Assembly (NCBI RefSeq): GCF_904846345.1
Contig: NZ_CAJHAJ010000003.1
Location: 1-64,000 of the forward strand
Length of the DNA stretch: 64,000 nt
DNA from: Psychrobacter maritimus
GTDB taxonomy: Bacteria > Pseudomonadota > Gammaproteobacteria > Pseudomonadales > Moraxellaceae
Direction: 5' to 3'
Positions 46,440 to 55,382 of this stretch are shown piece after piece. The notes under the pieces are model-generated. The model searched no databases. It was given only the letters and a program-made list of their open reading frames with translations, and had not been told where the DNA came from. The translations under genes were made by a program, and so were the position numbers. How positions within the stretch are numbered: the first letter of the stretch is position 1; the number at the start of each line of letters is the position of its first letter.

Positions 46440-46553
46440 CATCTTAGCGCAGAATTCTTCCACCTCTAAGGTGGTGAGATGAATGCGTTGTTGGTAACTA
46501 CTCTTACAACCTGTTGTATAATAATTATGCCACCAACTAACAATAAGTATTTC

Positions 46554-47708
46554 ATGCCAAAGCAGATCCTAAAAGCCCATAAAGTCAGGCTGTACCCTAA
46601 TGAAGAACAGCAAATATTCTTTGCTAAATCATTCGGCTGCACACGCTTTATTTGGAATAGGATGCTTGGCGATAAAATAGACCACTATGAGACCACAAAG
46701 ACCACCTTAAACAACACCCCTGCTCAGTATAAAAAAGAGTTTGAATGGCTCAAAGAAGTCGATAGCTTGGCATTGGCGAATGTGCAGCAAAACCTAAGAG
46801 CGGCTTATAACGCCTTCTTTAAGAACGGCACAGGCTTCCCTACGTTCAAGAAAAAGGGCATTAAAGACAGTTACACCACCAATAACCAAAAGGGTACAGT
46901 GGCGATCACAGATAGCACTGTCAAGCTGCCTAAGGTTGGTCATATCAACGCCAAGTTCCCAAGTGAAATAAACGGCTTAATAAAGAGCGCCACCATCAGC
47001 CATACCCCATCAGGTAAGTATTACGTCAGCCTACTGGTTGAAACCATCGTTAATGAATTACCAAAAACCCACTCTAACATCGGCATTGACTTAGGATTGA
47101 CAGACTTTATCGTCTTATCGGACAGCACGAAAGTTGCTAATCCTAAGTTTCTATCGAAGCTGCAAGACAAGCTTGCGCGTGAACAGAAAATTTTAGCCAA
47201 ACGCAGAGCCGTTGCCAAAGCGGATCAACGCAAGTTGTCAGAGAGCCGCAACTATCAAAAGCAAAAAATAAAAGTCGCCAAGGTCTATGAGAAAATAACC
47301 AATACTCGCAAAGACTTTCTACATAAACTCTCATTCAATCTCATCAAAAACCACGATGTTATTGCTATTGAGGACTTGAACGTCAAGGGTATGGTTAAGA
47401 ATCATAAACTTGCAAAAGCAATCAGTGATAGCTCATGGTCAGCATTCACCACCATGCTTGCCTATAAAGCAGACTGGTACGGCAAAACGCTTGTCAAAAT
47501 AGACCGATGGTTTCCATCGTCTAAGACTTGCTCAAACTGCAACCATCTACTGACTAAAGCTGAATTACCGCTGTCGGTTAGAATGTGGAATTGTCCAAGT
47601 TGCTTGCAGCAAAATGATCGCGATACCAATGCCAGTATCAATATCTTACATCAAGGATTGATACTGGCTAAACAATCAAAAACTGTCGGTGCGACAGGGT
47701 TAGCTTAG
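46554..47708 (+). CDS. tnpB: TnpB RNA-guided nuclease
   Basis: TnpB proteins of IS605 elements are RNA-guided DNA nucleases, ancestral to Cas12. Counting from the ATG at 46554 (384 residues), the RuvC-like catalytic residues are all present: Asp179 in GIDLGL, Glu273 in IAIEDLNVKGM and Asp357 in NDRDTNASINI. The zinc finger is CSNC (326-329) and CPSC (347-350). The N-terminal helix-turn-helix/WED start KAHKVRLYPNEEQQ fits the family. The frame is open 25 codons further up to 46479, but those residues look unlike TnpB; no start has a good ribosome binding site. The gene looks intact. Confidence 0.88.
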   Translation: MPKQILKAHKVRLYPNEEQQIFFAKSFGCTRFIWNRMLGDKIDHYETTKTTLNNTPAQYKKEFEWLKEVDSLALANVQQNLRAAYNAFFKNGTGFPTFKKKGIKDSYTTNNQKGTVAITDSTVKLPKVGHINAKFPSEINGLIKSATISHTPSGKYYVSLLVETIVNELPKTHSNIGIDLGLTDFIVLSDSTKVANPKFLSKLQDKLAREQKILAKRRAVAKADQRKLSESRNYQKQKIKVAKVYEKITNTRKDFLHKLSFNLIKNHDVIAIEDLNVKGMVKNHKLAKAISDSSWSAFTTMLAYKADWYGKTLVKIDRWFPSSKTCSNCNHLLTKAELPLSVRMWNCPSCLQQNDRDTNASINILHQGLILAKQSKTVGATGLA

Positions 47709-47800: not shown

Positions 47801-47874
47801 GAGTTTTTATTGATAAATAGCTGTCATCTCAACATAAAAAAAATTGTTTTTGAATGTATTCAGAGGGGGTAATG

Positions 47875-48564
47875 ATGGGAATGAAAAATTGTAGCACTTT
47901 ATTGCTGCTAGTAACATCTATAGCGTTAGCTGGCTGCCAAACCACTGTAACTGCGCCGTCTAAAGTTATATCTCAACATGAAAATATCAGGACGATGCAA
48001 GCAGAGATAGATTCAGATGGCGATGGAGTGCTTGATGATATAGACGAGTGCCCTGAAACGCCACCTAACGTAGTGGTCGATGCTAAAGGCTGTGAAATAA
48101 TAATTGAAGGAGGCGAGGCACTTGAGATGGAATTACATGGGTTTTTTGCACCGCTGAGTAGTCGATTAATTAATAGCTATGATAAAGAGTTTGCAAAAAT
48201 TGAAGAAAAGCTTAATGAATATTTAGACGCTAACATTTTTATCTTTGGGCACTTGTCATCGAATGAGCTTGCATTATCAAAGGATAATGACAACTTATCA
48301 CGCCAACGTGCACTTACTATTAAAAACAGACTTATAACCGAGCATCATATCGAATCTGACCGTATTACTACTTATGACTGCTTAGATCGGTATCCTTCTA
48401 CCAATATAGATCTGAGTTATGATGATCCTGAACAGATTGAATCCAAAGACAGAAGAGTGGTTTTTAAGGCAAGCAGACAAGTCAAGGATTTGTCGAATCT
48501 AAAATACGCAGGTGATAGAGAGAGTTATGGTAAGTACGCTAAGCACTGTGAGCCGTTTGAATAA
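47875..48564 (+). CDS. OmpA-like lipoprotein with TSP3-type calcium repeat (paralog 2)
   Basis: From the ATG at 47875 (GAGGGGG 5 nt upstream) this is a 229-residue lipoprotein with signal ending LAGC (Cys21). A TSP3-like motif (DSDGDGVLDDIDECPETPPN, about 43-62) and an OmpA-type domain (about 80-205) follow. The binding loop reads GHLSSNE instead of GHTDxxG, losing the acidic ligand; the LSRQRALTIKNRL helix with its conserved Arg and the KDRRV end are kept. In-frame ATGs at 47854 and 47872 are less well placed. It parallels the gene at 45804 in order and spacing of motifs but is quite diverged, so the duplication is old. Confidence 0.78.
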   Translation: MGMKNCSTLLLLVTSIALAGCQTTVTAPSKVISQHENIRTMQAEIDSDGDGVLDDIDECPETPPNVVVDAKGCEIIIEGGEALEMELHGFFAPLSSRLINSYDKEFAKIEEKLNEYLDANIFIFGHLSSNELALSKDNDNLSRQRALTIKNRLITEHHIESDRITTYDCLDRYPSTNIDLSYDDPEQIESKDRRVVFKASRQVKDLSNLKYAGDRESYGKYAKHCEPFE

Positions 48565-49512: not shown

Positions 49513-49735
49513 GTCGGCAAACTCGTCATTTTTAAACAAGGCGTTTTTGGGAGGGCATTTCTAAGAAGTTGGGGATTGTATCATATTAGCTCGTAAATAC
49601 GGCTATCAGCACATCATATTCATCGCAAAATATGACGGTTGTTTGAGTAGTAAATGACCTCTAAGTGGCTGGTTATTCTTTACCTGACAAACTTTTGTTG
49701 CTACATTGAAGGCATCAAAGGTTTTGGCACGTATT

Positions 49736-52477
49736 ATGTCGCTATATCAACTCAAATCTCAATTCCAAGATCAATTGCGTCCTATAAGCGATACTCTAGC
49801 TGGGCAAGGTGTTACCGCCAACCAAGTGACGGTTTCAGCAGTATTGTTGAGTGTGGGAACGGCCTATGTGATAGCTAAGCCCGCAGCCAAAAATCAAGCG
49901 CTATGGCTGTTAATGCCGTCATCATTGTTTGTGCGTATGGCGCTCAATGCTATTGATGGCATGATGGCGCGCGAGCACGGACAGGCATCCAAACTTGGTG
50001 CAGTGCTTAATGAATTGGGCGATATTATTGCCGATACAGCATTATTGGCCAGTCTGTTGCCGCATATTGATAATCAAGAAACGCCCGCTGGGCTGATAAA
50101 TATCGCAGAAAACCTATCTCACAGTCAGCGCCATATTGTCGGTTTGATTGGTCTTAGTATTGGTAGCGAGCTACTGGGTATAGCCAGTCATACAGCTCTA
50201 GGTACTCGAGCCAACCATGGGCCATTAGGCAAAAGTGACCGTGCTTTTTTGCTGGGTATGCTTGGTACCTTGGTTGGTGTCAAAGTACCGTTATCGCTAT
50301 CACCTATAAGAATAGGGCAACTGTGCCTACTGACAGAAGCAATGCTCTTAAAGACTTGCCTCAATCGCTTGCGTTATATGGTGAATTTATACGTAATGCG
50401 TAAACCGCCAGTGCCTAAATCAACACTGAGTGCCTTAAATACTTGTCATCATTCAAACATTTCCAACCATGTTGAATTTTCTCCTAGCGTCATTGATGGT
50501 TTCATCGCTCATAACGCTTTACCTCATTCTTCTACTAATGCTTCTCTTTTGGAATCCAATATTATGTCAGCGACCTCTAATAATGCAGAAAATAAAATAA
50601 ATCTGCTTAACGATAGTAACCATAAATACCCATCCCAAAAGACTTCATCAAAGCAGCCCTCACCCAAAACTATTCATGGTGAAAGCAGTTATAACGCTTA
50701 TGATGGCACGGCAATATATTATCGTTACTGGCTGACGATGCCTTTAGAGGCTATAAAACAAACCAGTCAGCAACACACAAAACAGCGCCAAGTCATTCTG
50801 TTACATCGTGGTCATGAGCATTCAGGACGATTGGAAGAGTTAGGACGGCAGTTTGCAGCGGCGGGCTATCAAGTATTTGCATGGGATGCACGCGGTAATG
50901 GGCGCTCAGGCGGTATCAAAGATCATGCCGAGAGCGTCACTGAGCTAGAGCGTGATTTAAACGACTTTGTGCAATTGGTCGTTGCTCAAACTGGCATTGC
51001 CATTGACGATACTTTACTCATCGCCAGTAGCATCGGTGCGGTACTCGCGGCAGCATGGGTACATGATTACGCGCCCAATATTCGCGGGATGATTTTGGGT
51101 ACACCTGCATTGAAGATTCGTTTGTATCTACCCTTTGCCATACCATCGTTAAAGGTGGCACGCGGACTCGGTTTGATGTCACGCGTGAGTAGCTACGTCA
51201 AAGCACAAGTATTGACTCATGATAAAGACGCACAGCAAGCCTACAATGCCGACCCGCTTATCTCCAATAGCATCTCGACTGACTTGCTCATTGATACTCA
51301 TGCGACGGGTCAACGCTTGCTCGATGATGCTGGTGCCATTACCGTACCGACGTTTGTATTGTGTGCAGGCAAGGATTATGTGGTCGATAAGCAGGCTGAA
51401 CGTGATTTTTATGACGCCATCAATACGACTGATAAACGCTGGCAATTATATCCAGACAGTTATCATGCTATCTTTCATGAAACCAATAAGGCAGATGTCT
51501 TCGCTGATTGTATTGAGTTCACTGAGCAGGTATTCAGTACGGACGTTAAAACGCCTGATTTAAGCGCCGCTCATCTAAACAGTGCCAGTAAGGATAAGGT
51601 TGATCGCTTAGCGATTAAACCTTTTAACCCAAGCTTTGCCATTACCCGATTTGCCATGCGAAAATTTGGTCATGTCAGCGATGCCATTGCCACTGGACTT
51701 GTGCATGGCTTTGATTCGGGTCATTCGCTCGATCATGTCTATTACAATCAGCCGAGTGGTCAGAATAAATTTGGTCAGGCAGTCGATAAATTTTACTTAA
51801 ACAATATTGGTTGGCAAGGGATTCGTATCCGCCGTGAGCATATATTAGAGCTAGCACGTCAAGCTTTAGCAGATCTTGAAGATAAGAACCAAAGTAGCGC
51901 TAAGTTATACCAACCAAGATTGCTAGATATTGCTAGTGGCCATGGTTTTTATGCGTTTGATTTGTTGACAGAGTTTACAGACTTGCATGCTGAGCTACGT
52001 GATTATGAGCAGCATAATATTCAAGCTTTACAGTCAAAAGCACAGCAATTAGAAATTGCTGATCGCGTGATTGCCTGTCAAAAAGATGCCTTTGACCCTG
52101 CCAGTTACGTTAATGAGCAGAAAGAGACTGGCAGTGTCGATGAAACAAAATTCGATATCTCCATTGCCTCTGGTGTTTTTGAATTGTTTTCTGACAATAT
52201 GCTACCAACGACGGCTTTGGCGGGCATTTACGATAGTTTAAAATCTGGTGGTTATTTACTTTATACCAATCAGCCTTGGCATCCTGAACAAGAATTTATC
52301 AGTAAAACCTTAAACAATCATCGTGGCAGCAGTTGGGTGATGCGTTGTCGTTCACAAGCAGAGATGGATCAGTTGGTTGAGAATGCTGGCTTTCAAAAAA
52401 TAGCGATGCGTATTGATCGCTTTGGTATTTTTACCGTGTCACTAGCGATTAAAGTCGCCTCAACCAATCATGAATAA
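49736..52477 (+). CDS. Fusion of YnbA-like CDP-alcohol phosphatidyltransferase with YnbC-like hydrolase/methyltransferase
   Basis: Three enzyme domains lie in one 913-residue chain. Residues 1-225 are a membrane CDP-alcohol phosphatidyltransferase with NAIDGMMAREHG and GAVLNELGD; the first and third Asp of the canonical motif are Asn71 and Asn92, a change I also recall in E. coli YnbA. An Asn/Ser-rich linker (about 225-310) follows. Residues 310-570 are an alpha/beta hydrolase (nucleophile elbow ASSIG, acid in GKDYVVD, His in SYHAIFHE). Residues 640-913 are a SAM methyltransferase with DIASGHGFYAF. In E. coli, ynbA and ynbC are separate genes. The ATG at 49736 aligns with the YnbA start; a TTG lies 30 bp upstream. 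The next gene overlaps by 8 bp. Confidence 0.85.
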   Translation: MSLYQLKSQFQDQLRPISDTLAGQGVTANQVTVSAVLLSVGTAYVIAKPAAKNQALWLLMPSSLFVRMALNAIDGMMAREHGQASKLGAVLNELGDIIADTALLASLLPHIDNQETPAGLINIAENLSHSQRHIVGLIGLSIGSELLGIASHTALGTRANHGPLGKSDRAFLLGMLGTLVGVKVPLSLSPIRIGQLCLLTEAMLLKTCLNRLRYMVNLYVMRKPPVPKSTLSALNTCHHSNISNHVEFSPSVIDGFIAHNALPHSSTNASLLESNIMSATSNNAENKINLLNDSNHKYPSQKTSSKQPSPKTIHGESSYNAYDGTAIYYRYWLTMPLEAIKQTSQQHTKQRQVILLHRGHEHSGRLEELGRQFAAAGYQVFAWDARGNGRSGGIKDHAESVTELERDLNDFVQLVVAQTGIAIDDTLLIASSIGAVLAAAWVHDYAPNIRGMILGTPALKIRLYLPFAIPSLKVARGLGLMSRVSSYVKAQVLTHDKDAQQAYNADPLISNSISTDLLIDTHATGQRLLDDAGAITVPTFVLCAGKDYVVDKQAERDFYDAINTTDKRWQLYPDSYHAIFHETNKADVFADCIEFTEQVFSTDVKTPDLSAAHLNSASKDKVDRLAIKPFNPSFAITRFAMRKFGHVSDAIATGLVHGFDSGHSLDHVYYNQPSGQNKFGQAVDKFYLNNIGWQGIRIRREHILELARQALADLEDKNQSSAKLYQPRLLDIASGHGFYAFDLLTEFTDLHAELRDYEQHNIQALQSKAQQLEIADRVIACQKDAFDPASYVNEQKETGSVDETKFDISIASGVFELFSDNMLPTTALAGIYDSLKSGGYLLYTNQPWHPEQEFISKTLNNHRGSSWVMRCRSQAEMDQLVENAGFQKIAMRIDRFGIFTVSLAIKVASTNHE

Positions 52478-53672
52478 TACGCATGCCAAACCCTATGAGC
52501 GTGTACAGATTTTTTCAGGGGGCGGTTCACGTTTTGGCTATTATTTAGGTAGCTATGCAGCATTGGTGGCTCATGATTTGACGCCGGATATGATTGTTGG
52601 CACCTGCGGTGGTAGTCTATCGGCTTATTTGGTTAATTTAGCGCCCGATCCCAAGGATTTGCAGGAGCTCATGTGCAGCCGTGAGTTGTATCGTGTCATT
52701 ACTACCATCAGACATGTCGCGCCAGACGAAGCAAGTAAGCGATTAAAAATACGTTATATGGCTCAAGCTTTCAAGCGCTGGCGACTCACAAAGCAAAAAG
52801 CTAACGGACAAAGACAGCAACAAGCAGATAACTATGAGCGGATTTTGGATGAATTGCAGCAACTAGCGATGTTTCGAGTCGATAATGAGGAACAATGGCT
52901 TGACGAGTTGTCTGGTTTTTCTCTCAAGCGCAATAATAATTCGTTTAATCCTACCGCGCCAGAGATAGCCATTATCGCCAGCCGCCTGTATCCAACAGCT
53001 AATCAAGGGACTACTGCTAGTAATTCTGTTCACAATGATTTTAGGCTACAAGAATTATTATTTGCCCCGCCGCGATTGGCAGCATTAGATCTCATCGCAG
53101 AAAAACTGAATTCACCGGCTCATACATTTGCTACTGGACGTATCAATCAGTCTGTCAAAACGCTGACCAAATGGGATTTTGCCCCTGCGATTCGTGCTTC
53201 TATGGCAGATATGTATTACCTACCACCGACGCATATCGCAGCGCTTGGTTGGTGCTTAGGCGGGGTGATTAATCTCACGCCCATTGAGCTAGCGTGTCAA
53301 TTGGGTCATAGCGTATTTGCAGAGACCAAGGCGGGTTATGATTCATGGCTTGCCGCACCAGCCATTCAACGTGTTTTTGGTTTTGACCCCAACGAGCGTT
53401 TGGCACAGGTGCAGGGTTTTGATTCAACAGAAACGCTGACACGCGCTGATTCTGTTAAAACCAGTCCTCGAGTGAATCAACTACATTGGTTACCTTTTGC
53501 AGATAATGCTCAGCAGTTGGCAAGACAGCATGTACAAAAACGTTTCAATATCAAACAAATGGTCGTTGAGCTCATTCACAGTGACTATGATGGCTTTGTG
53601 CGGCAAATGCAGGCGCAATGGCAGTATGGCTATCAGCGTACAGCTGACTACATACAGCAGCATAGTCTATGA
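52470..53672 (+). CDS. Patatin-like protein lacking both catalytic residues
   Basis: The N-terminus has the patatin oxyanion loop FSGGGSRFGYYLG (15-27) and a nucleophile elbow VGTCGGSLSA, but the catalytic Ser is Cys46. The region matching the second motif (D-G-G-x-x-N-x-T-P) reads LGGVINLTP with Leu263 for Asp. The fold is therefore patatin-like, while the Ser-Asp dyad of phospholipase A activity is gone. It may be a non-catalytic lipid-binding subunit or use Cys differently. A middle region (about 85-200) is Gln/Asn-rich and variable. It overlaps the fusion gene by 8 bp and the SDR gene by 4 bp, so all three are translationally coupled. Confidence 0.85.
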   Translation: MNNTHAKPYERVQIFSGGGSRFGYYLGSYAALVAHDLTPDMIVGTCGGSLSAYLVNLAPDPKDLQELMCSRELYRVITTIRHVAPDEASKRLKIRYMAQAFKRWRLTKQKANGQRQQQADNYERILDELQQLAMFRVDNEEQWLDELSGFSLKRNNNSFNPTAPEIAIIASRLYPTANQGTTASNSVHNDFRLQELLFAPPRLAALDLIAEKLNSPAHTFATGRINQSVKTLTKWDFAPAIRASMADMYYLPPTHIAALGWCLGGVINLTPIELACQLGHSVFAETKAGYDSWLAAPAIQRVFGFDPNERLAQVQGFDSTETLTRADSVKTSPRVNQLHWLPFADNAQQLARQHVQKRFNIKQMVVELIHSDYDGFVRQMQAQWQYGYQRTADYIQQHSL

Positions 53673-54481
53673 AGAATGCCACAAAGCCCGCCTCAATAGA
53701 TAAACCACACATTATCGTCGTTGGTGGTACCAGTGGACTTGGTTTGGCATTGGCACTGCATCATCAGGCGCTTGGCTGGCAAGTGAGCGTGGTTGGTCAT
53801 AGCACGGCAAAGATAGACCGTCTCAATAGTCAGCATCCTAATATTATTACTTATTGCTGTGATTTGACTGATAACGCGCAAACACAAAGTTTGTTAGAGA
53901 GCTTGTCAAATATCAGTTTTCAAAGAGTGATTTATAGTGCGGGTAGTTATACCAATGAGCGTGTTCACCATCTGAGTCAAGCGGACAGCGATCAAATGCT
54001 AGCGATTAATCTGCAAGCGTTTGAGCAGGTTTTTAGATGGGCAAGTGAGCAATTAAAGCACCAAAGCTGTGCGTTGGATATCAACGAAAACAGCAGCCTA
54101 AGCCTAATTTGTATTGCTTCTATAGCAGGTACTATGGATTATCCTTATGCCAGTCTATATGCCAAAAGCAAACGCGCGATGATTGCCACTGCGAGCGCCT
54201 ATCGTGCAGCACTTGCGCCTTATTATATTCAAGTAAACTGCATCGCCTCGGGATATATCGACACCCAAGCATTACGTGATTTGAATAATGATGATGCTAG
54301 CCATAAGCCATTTATAATAAAGACACAAACGGCGGTTGAGAAGATTATGCAGGCAATTGATAAAGATATTGAGTTGGCCATATTTCCACGCTCCATGCGC
54401 TGTATTACTCGGGCAATCAATCATTTACCTAAGCCTTTGCTTAACTGGATATTGCGTAGTAAATTGGATAAAACCACTTGA
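53669..54481 (+). CDS. Short-chain dehydrogenase/reductase
   Basis: A classical-size SDR (270 residues) with the nucleotide motif GGTSGLG (19-25), SAG at the NAG position (about 90-92), catalytic Ser151 and YAKSK (Tyr164, Lys168). The substrate is unknown. After the YxxxK helix it has SGYIDTQALRD, where many SDRs place the substrate loop. A C-terminal segment (about 240-265, IFPRSMRCITRAINHLPKPLLNWILR) is hydrophobic/basic and could sit on the membrane, as in DltE/YdfG-like or lipid-acting SDRs. It is the third gene of the coupled lipid locus and ends 7 bp from the convergent CdsA-like gene. Confidence 0.87.
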   Translation: MKNATKPASIDKPHIIVVGGTSGLGLALALHHQALGWQVSVVGHSTAKIDRLNSQHPNIITYCCDLTDNAQTQSLLESLSNISFQRVIYSAGSYTNERVHHLSQADSDQMLAINLQAFEQVFRWASEQLKHQSCALDINENSSLSLICIASIAGTMDYPYASLYAKSKRAMIATASAYRAALAPYYIQVNCIASGYIDTQALRDLNNDDASHKPFIIKTQTAVEKIMQAIDKDIELAIFPRSMRCITRAINHLPKPLLNWILRSKLDKTT

Positions 54482-54488
54482 TAACAGC

Positions 54489-55382
54489 TTAGCCGAGCAG
54501 CCAATAAAACAAGGTAAATAATGGCACACCAATCAGCAAGCTATCTATTCTATCCAATACGCCGCCATGTCCAGCGAGCATAGTACCCGTGTCTTTTACG
54601 CCGTGCTGACGTTTAAAGGCGGATTCTAATAAATCTCCAGCGATACCACTTACCGCTAAACCATAGGCGGCCAATAAGCAAATCCACCAGCTAAAAGAAG
54701 TGAGCCAGATGCCTAATAGTGTGGCCAATATCGCTGCTAATACACTGCCAAAGAGAGCACCTTCGATACTTTTATTCGGGCTGATGGTTGGAGCAAGACC
54801 GCGCTTAAAGATTTTGTGACCAAGCAATCGTCCGCATAGATACTGTGCAATATCATTAAATTGACTGGCGAATAATACAAAAAACAAAATGCCATATTGT
54901 TCGCGTTGCCACGTTAATTGCTGTAAGGCAATCAAGCTGATAATCAATGCGATAAAGACAGAACTAAACAGCAAGTCTAAGAATTTTAAATGTGTATAGG
55001 CTTGCTTAGAATCAGAAGGATTTTTTATAAAAGGCTGAGTATTTGGTTGCAAGCCACGCGCTTGAAGCTTACTAATAAGCCTAGCTTTGCTAGGTAGGTG
55101 CCATAATCGTTTAATCTCGTAGCAGCCACGCACACCAATCAACAAGAAAAAAGCGATCAGCAACCACTGATAGGGGTATGTGCGAGAGTGTAGGTGTTGA
55201 CTATTATCAGTTATCTTAGCGATAACATAACAAGCGCAAAGCGCTGCTAACATGAGCCACCATGAGCGTGCTATTAAATAGATTTTCGGTAAGCGCTGAC
55301 GCAAGCTAGGTAGGGCAAGCATAGCCCAAACCGAACTCACGACTAGCATTAGAACCATCACAAACCGTAAGTCAGAAGCCAT
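54489..55382 (-). CDS. CdsA/YnbB-like phosphatidate cytidylyltransferase
   Basis: A multi-helix membrane protein (297 residues) that would make CDP-diacylglycerol from phosphatidate and CTP. The family signature is present near the C-terminus: SAFKRQHGVKDTGTMLAGHG followed by GVLDRIDSLL. The FLLIGVRGCYEIKRLW segment and a position next to a YnbA-like transferase fit YnbB rather than housekeeping CdsA, which normally sits with ispU and rseP. It converges on the SDR gene with 7 bp between stops. It would supply the substrate for the phosphatidyltransferase domain of the fusion protein. Confidence 0.87.
   Translation of the reverse strand: MASDLRFVMVLMLVVSSVWAMLALPSLRQRLPKIYLIARSWWLMLAALCACYVIAKITDNSQHLHSRTYPYQWLLIAFFLLIGVRGCYEIKRLWHLPSKARLISKLQARGLQPNTQPFIKNPSDSKQAYTHLKFLDLLFSSVFIALIISLIALQQLTWQREQYGILFFVLFASQFNDIAQYLCGRLLGHKIFKRGLAPTISPNKSIEGALFGSVLAAILATLLGIWLTSFSWWICLLAAYGLAVSGIAGDLLESAFKRQHGVKDTGTMLAGHGGVLDRIDSLLIGVPLFTLFYWLLG

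Follow-up and report, generated by a model that had tools for sequence, protein, structure and literature searches.

How did a phosphatidyltransferase, an alpha/beta hydrolase and a methyltransferase come to share one chain in Psychrobacter maritimus, and what might such a gene make together with its neighbours? The question is raised by a locus at positions 49736 to 55382 of contig NZ_CAJHAJ010000003.1, of which positions 1 to 64,000 (64,000 nucleotides, the window in what follows) were analysed. The original prediction, made from the letters alone, called this locus a rearranged relative of the Escherichia coli ynbABCD genes, and the kinship is borne out: homologues of YnbA, YnbB and YnbC lie here together. 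We find YnbA joined to YnbC in every YnbC-bearing Psychrobacter genome sampled, and the joined gene probably yields a free YnbC, a predicted second product, besides the full-length protein. E. coli K-12 and members of several bacterial phyla carry the ynbABCD genes, for which no function was found described in the literature searched. Both ynbC and ynbA surface in screens or gene lists (PMC2435150, PMC13031359, PMC13313352), and a ynbC transposon mutant is reported in one of these (PMC2435150) to affect polar localisation of an intron protein.

The fused gene

A single open reading frame (ORF) on the forward strand, from an ATG at 49736 to a stop at 52477, encodes a product of 913 amino acids (aa) that joins YnbA to YnbC. 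As had been claimed, three domains share the chain, and the Pfam profiles CDP-OH_P_transf (25.9 bits, cut-off 22), Hydrolase_4 (196 bits) and Methyltransf_20 (290 bits) all match within this one ORF. The YnbA part, a CDP-alcohol phosphatidyltransferase-like membrane domain assigned from Pfam and signature residues, occupies 49736 to 50410 and is followed by a variable linker, predicted to be disordered, at 50411 to 50665. The alpha/beta hydrolase domain of YnbC, which has a monoacylglycerol-lipase fold according to Pfam, alignment and fold search, lies at 50783 to 51487, and the Methyltransf_20 domain (Pfam, alignment), with its S-adenosylmethionine-type motif DIASGHG intact, at 51515 to 52450. 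An AlphaFold2 model of the fusion protein has a mean pLDDT (predicted local distance difference test) of 86, with linker residues 227-303 below 50. An ORF finder had placed the start at a TTG at 49706, its longest start. This is disfavoured, and the ATG at 49736 used in the original prediction is the likelier start, because many relatives whose match takes in those first residues have one stop within it, with an ORF that starts several codons further on than the match (in L050, for example, the match runs from 7001 and the ORF from 7019).

The C-terminal part has the hydrolase with Ser-Asp-His triad and the Methyltransf_20 domain that together mark a YnbC protein. The triad residues Ser432, Asp547 and His577 are invariant in 131 of 131 aligned YnbC sequences; this count, like the YnbA and patatin residue counts below, includes the query sequences. 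In profile and fold searches the hydrolase was closest to monoacylglycerol lipases, the fold-search matches listed being taken up by hydrolases. In E. coli, ynbA, ynbB, ynbC and ynbD (b1408-b1411) are four genes, as the original prediction had it for the first three. E. coli YnbC already unites the hydrolase with the methyltransferase, however, and the new join is therefore that of YnbA to YnbC only. A different arrangement was seen in L118 (7962-9761), where a YnbC-like hydrolase forms the C-terminal part of a 600-aa ORF whose first ~320 residues are without a Pfam match.

The conservation of the fusion was examined in a draw of 199 Moraxellaceae genomes, which contained 38 Psychrobacter genomes with YnbC (P. 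maritimus included) and at least 23 without it. YnbC is fused to YnbA in 38 of these 38, four of them assembled in one or two contigs, and this recurrence excludes a sequencing or assembly join, or chance, as the origin of the long ORF; the fusion is not peculiar to one assembly, a concern that had been raised at the outset. Outside the genus, no fusion was found among the 199 genomes. YnbA and YnbC are unfused neighbours in four genomes of one genus, that of Moraxella lacunata, and in fourteen of another, in one of which (L083) YnbC itself is split in two pieces. The neighbourhood is conserved as well: the fusion, a patatin-like gene, a short-chain dehydrogenase/reductase (SDR) gene and a convergent ynbB occur together in 35 of 37 fetched Psychrobacter loci, the exceptions being L061, with patatin only, and L063, with none of the three. 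A second fusion was found in one Acetobacteraceae metagenome contig (L190). It falls outside the patatin clade of the YnbC tree, and therefore the joining probably arose at least twice.

A predicted internal start in the linker

Thirty-nine distinct fused genes were compared, namely the P. maritimus gene, those of the 37 fetched loci, and L130. All 39 have an in-frame ATG in the linker with GGA upstream, at a distance of 10 nucleotides (nt) in 35, 9 nt in three and 6 nt in one. In the window, a Shine-Dalgarno-like GGAA is retained at 50551 to 50554, and the ATG at 50564 to 50566 (residue 277) is where a second start is predicted, from which a free YnbC of 637 aa would result. Base pairing to the 16S tail reached -4 kcal/mol or better at 35 of the 39 linker ATGs, compared with 7% of 691 other in-frame ATGs. 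When the methionine columns of the alignment were considered (14 columns, at least 20 genes each), that of the linker ATG was alone in being mostly Shine-Dalgarno-like, with 33 of 36 genes at -4 kcal/mol or better and the next column at 18%.

At this inner site the nucleotides are kept while the amino acids vary, as judged from the aligned genes. The codons there are TTG GAG (25 genes), TCG GAG (6), TTG GAA (3, including P. maritimus), CAA GGA (3), TTG GAT (1) and TCG CAA before GGA (1), the GGA persisting across Leu, Ser or Gln codons. The Leu codon is TTG in 29 of 29, against 22% of Leu codons overall; the Glu codon is GAG in 31 of 34, somewhat above the 65% background.

The strongest competing explanation is a plain fusion of two enzymes in which the linker ATG and its GGA are functionless leftovers. 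Unfused relatives have ynbA and ynbC adjacent, hence an old start would have been present at the join. Several further observations weigh on the same side, against a working second start. The inner site outscores every other in-frame ATG in only 17 of the 39 genes, and in the remaining 22 another ATG does better. The P. maritimus site is weak (-3.3 kcal/mol, median -5.9) and level with the start of the gene itself (-3.4), while a further in-frame ATG of the same gene reaches -4.3 kcal/mol. In addition, all 39 genes are from one genus and 14 have an identical site sequence, and the counts are thus not independent. Mere leftovers are harder to reconcile with the divergence of the linker otherwise, its length varying from 36 to 169 residues between profile ends and its major-residue frequency being 0.36 and 0.29 versus 0.60 around the ATG, or with a Leu codon at the site that is always TTG. 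We regard this explanation as possible, if somewhat improbable. Because the linker ATG and GGA are kept in every fused gene compared, we favour the production of free YnbC in addition to the fusion protein. One gene may make two proteins, the fused form seeming to retain the second enzyme's start signal, and the internal start suggests how two adjacent enzymes can fuse with the second still separately available.

The altered signature of YnbA

The YnbA part passes the Pfam cut-off for CDP-alcohol phosphotransferases (PF01066) and departs from the signature of that family, D1xxD2GxxAR..GxxxD3xxxD4. It reads N71-xx-D74-G-xx-A-R-x8-G-xxx-N92-xxx-D96, with Asn for D1 and D3. Among 131 YnbA sequences, Asn is found at the first and the third position in 130 each, and the second and fourth positions are Asp throughout; both glycines are invariant, and an acidic residue (Glu or Asp) directly follows Asn92 in 130. 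The 131 include four diverged second copies from Xanthomonas-type loci. As a control, other family members were inspected in nine genomes: 24 of 24 had Asp at both positions and 9 of 9 YnbA had Asn at both, where one member labelled as other (L228) reads as YnbA. The second YnbA-like genes occur in L165, L166, L192 and L201, and those of L165 and L166 deviate at one Asn position (His, Ser).

The best match of the YnbA profile in the PDB was Mycobacterium tuberculosis PgsA1 (6h53, E 2.6e-16). The signature Asp residues are described as metal ligands (PMC6506517, PMC4634129), and in PgsA1 D68, D71, D89 and D93 hold two metals, D93 being the presumed base (PMC6506517). In phosphatidylinositol-phosphate synthases, two arginines are reported as ligands of the acceptor phosphate (PMC4634129, PMC6506517); those of PgsA1, R155 and R195, align with R169 (130/131) and R211 (131/131) of YnbA. 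Since these arginines are kept, a phosphorylated alcohol is favoured as the putative YnbA acceptor, which fits a phosphatase partner. YnbA is unlike PgsA1 in having Asn in place of Asp68 and Asp89, and it scores 43.8 bits against the 170-bit cut-off of the phosphatidylinositol-phosphate synthase equivalog NCBIfam NF045883.

Asn at two metal-ligand positions could mean that YnbA is inactive or performs other chemistry. In the extreme case it would be a catalytically dead fold, its role confined to binding cytidine diphosphate-diacylglycerol (CDP-DAG) or lipid and to keeping YnbC at the membrane, and the near-universal exchange of two of the four metal ligands is what such a proposal has to offer. 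Dead enzymes usually drift more than this, whereas Asp74, the presumed base Asp96 and both glycines of YnbA are invariant, the acceptor-phosphate arginines are nearly so, and the acidic residue after Asn92 is almost always present. We consider a dead YnbA unlikely.

The patatin-like protein and the SDR

The overlapping and facing genes of the original prediction agree with the coordinates. A patatin-like gene (52470 to 53672, forward strand; Patatin, 58 bits) begins with an ATG 8 nt inside the 3' end of the fusion gene, and an SDR gene (53669 to 54481, forward strand; adh_short, 96 bits) begins at an ATG (53669) that overlaps the patatin stop by 4 nt. The SDR stop faces that of the CdsA-like gene, ynbB (54489 to 55382, reverse strand; CTP_transf_1, 148 bits), across 7 bp (54482-54488).

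The patatin-like protein has the patatin fold and lacks the Ser-Asp catalytic dyad of patatin-like phospholipases. The nucleophile position is Cys46 in 43 of 43 sequences, and the position of the dyad Asp is Leu, Phe, Met or Ile in 43 of 43 (Leu263 here). In both respects the protein is unlike the patatin-like lipases PlpD and CapE/CapV, and no Cys patatin of such a kind was found in the titles and abstract openings of the literature among the matches listed. In the SDR, Ser151, Tyr164, Lys168 and the glycine motif are intact in 41 of 41, and no PDB chain matched it at E 1e-15 or better.

Patatin is present in 37 of the 38 Psychrobacter YnbC genomes, and all 41 patatin genomes among the 199 have YnbC. 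A PlsC-like acyltransferase gene was seen in 61 of 144 loci with full YnbC and in none of the 56 with patatin and SDR; a small membrane protein gene showed the same pattern (55 of 144, 0 of 56 patatin loci). The co-occurrence and PlsC/patatin exclusion counts are not corrected for relatedness, the 144 loci comprising 129 distinct YnbC sequences and the 56 including duplicates (42 distinct with patatin). Patatin and SDR thus stand where many other loci carry PlsC, and therefore they probably set up the acyl part of the lipid in another way.

YnbB, YnbD and the putative pathway

YnbB is a paralogue of the phosphatidate cytidylyltransferase CdsA, scoring 92.8 bits against the 385-bit cut-off of the CdsA equivalog NCBIfam NF008635. 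Overproduced E. coli YnbB is reported to raise MPIase without replacing CdsA in bulk synthesis, and MPIase was not significantly changed in the ynbB knockout described in the same source (PMC6362211). Since YnbB cannot replace CdsA, its output seems specialised.

YnbD, a PAP2 and dual-specificity phosphatase protein, is absent from the locus and has no match in the P. maritimus genome. To that extent the reported loss of ynbD stands, although 25 of the 38 Psychrobacter YnbC genomes keep a copy without stops. In 24 of these the copy lies outside the fetched 7 kb flanks, and L062 is the only fetched fused Psychrobacter locus with YnbD alongside. The active-site residues of YnbD, which is PAP2-type, are intact in 9 of 9 aligned sequences. 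Among the YnbC-negative Psychrobacter genomes listed, three have a YnbD match, all with stop codons; beyond Psychrobacter, YnbD matches in G020 and G038 are partial and not accompanied by YnbC. YnbD is thus unlinked in most relatives, not simply lost, and its co-inheritance with YnbC though unlinked supports a shared pathway, in counts uncorrected for relatedness.

A lipid pathway using CDP-DAG, as first proposed, remains the natural reading of the locus. From gene content, co-occurrence, residue changes and the internal start signal we infer its catalytic steps, substrate and product, and the second protein. YnbB would supply CDP-DAG locally. The YnbA domain would transfer the phosphatidyl group to a phosphorylated alcohol, as its two conserved arginines suggest, and YnbD, where present, would strip off that phosphate. 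The YnbC hydrolase would trim an acyl chain and its methyltransferase methylate the product, with the Cys-type patatin and the SDR providing the acyl route in place of PlsC. The fused gene would probably give both a membrane-anchored YnbA-YnbC and a free YnbC from the internal ribosome site at 50551-50566. To this scheme as a whole, the Psychrobacter form of a ynb phospholipid gene set, we assign an even chance.

Other facts count against it. No enzyme of the ynb set was found assayed in the literature, save YnbB indirectly. The P. maritimus genome, in common with 13 of the 38 Psychrobacter YnbC genomes, is without YnbD, and the phosphatase step would need another enzyme there. R94, reported conserved among inositol-phosphate users, is mostly not kept, with Arg there in 12 of 131 YnbA. 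Neither a PlsC-like gene nor patatin lies in the fetched flanks of 27 of the 144 full-YnbC loci, E. coli included, and in P. coccoides (G070) the fusion occurs with no patatin and with neither SDR nor YnbB close by.

The same enzymes might instead serve the recycling or degradation of phospholipids, with hydrolase, patatin and phosphatase stripping lipids and the cytidylyltransferase re-activating phosphatidate. The nearness of the hydrolase to monoacylglycerol lipases, the patatin fold and the PAP2-type YnbD would suit such a role, which we think quite improbable in view of a patatin without its dyad and of the PlsC-like acyltransferase of so many loci, YnbA and the methyltransferase, all of which point to synthesis. 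A pyrophospholipid such as GlcNAc-PP-DAG (GlcNAc, N-acetylglucosamine) or an MPIase-like glycolipid, with YnbB as key enzyme, has the overproduction result behind it, and we give it very little credence given the unchanged MPIase of the knockout and a scheme with no role for YnbC, YnbD or patatin.

Within the preferred synthetic pathway, the chemistry is narrowed by the two-Asn signature and the acceptor-phosphate arginines, by YnbD being co-inherited though unlinked, and by the patatin/SDR module. A bolder proposal, tentative when all its parts are taken together, sees YnbA as the first of a catalytically distinct class of CDP-alcohol transferases whose metal site has two Asn, acidic residue 93 perhaps compensating for them. 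The enzyme would then make a methylated phospholipid, so far undescribed, across many bacterial phyla. In Psychrobacter and relatives the PlsC acyl step would be taken over by a cysteine-nucleophile patatin together with the SDR, and two proteins would arise from the fused gene by way of nested starts.

Neighbouring genes and plasmid copies

A lysine exporter gene adjoins the locus. Upstream are OmpA-like lipoprotein genes (47854 to 48564 in the window; the family name is a reading by eye), which also occur in other Psychrobacter loci, often several in a row. The ORF at 46479 to 47708 resembles a TnpB-type transposon protein, as read from the letters.

Mobile spread of the patatin/SDR form was considered and rejected, as it was found in one of 72,556 plasmid records. 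This is the mobilizable plasmid pNP7-2 of Moraxella osloensis (L203, NZ_CP024445.1), where a transposase gene stands between the CdsA-like and PAP2 genes and the annotation covers the methyltransferase half of YnbC only, though the match spans 98%. Two other plasmids carry ynb genes. An E. coli IncF colicin plasmid (L204, NZ_CP045714.1) has CdsA-like, PlsC-like and YnbC genes near colicin V and M genes, with neither YnbA nor YnbD annotated in that stretch, and on a 19 kb plasmid of Burkholderia ambifaria (L205, NZ_CP066768.1) the cellulose genes bcsB and bcsZ adjoin a ynb set that includes PlsC-like and CdsA-like genes.

Comparison with other ynb loci

Among 369 genomes of the class Gammaproteobacteria, full-length YnbC was found in 10, with six more matching its hydrolase half only; the patatin showed no spread through the class, being found at E 1e-15 in P. 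maritimus alone. All four of YnbA, YnbB, YnbC and YnbD are present in 75 of 151 loci examined, 73 of them unfused, and these four-gene loci span Gammaproteobacteria and other Proteobacteria, Verrucomicrobia, Acidobacteria and other phyla. The Psychrobacter locus is like E. coli ynbABCD in having homologues of YnbA, YnbB and a two-domain YnbC in one place. It is unlike it in that YnbA and YnbC are joined, patatin and SDR are added and YnbB is convergent, and in P. maritimus YnbD is absent from the genome.

A rearrangement from the E. coli arrangement, as first suggested, does not hold. Seven unfused loci (five distinct YnbC sequences), including those of M. lacunata and Vibrio xiamenensis, have patatin, SDR and a facing YnbB. 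Each of the seven also contains a YnbD match, which in L067 and L069 (Moraxella copies) is split in two. A tree of YnbC sequences gathers the patatin loci into a single group (100/99) that also takes in Marinobacterium lutimaris and the fused but patatin-less L063, and places E. coli and the remaining Moraxellaceae genus that has YnbC elsewhere. Given these unfused six-gene relatives and the tree, the best reading of the Psychrobacter locus is descent from a six-gene form through fusion and the departure of YnbD from the locus. The unfused loci of M. lacunata and V. xiamenensis share with Psychrobacter the order YnbA, YnbC, patatin, SDR and facing YnbB, and differ from it in that YnbA and YnbC are separate and YnbD adjoins YnbB.

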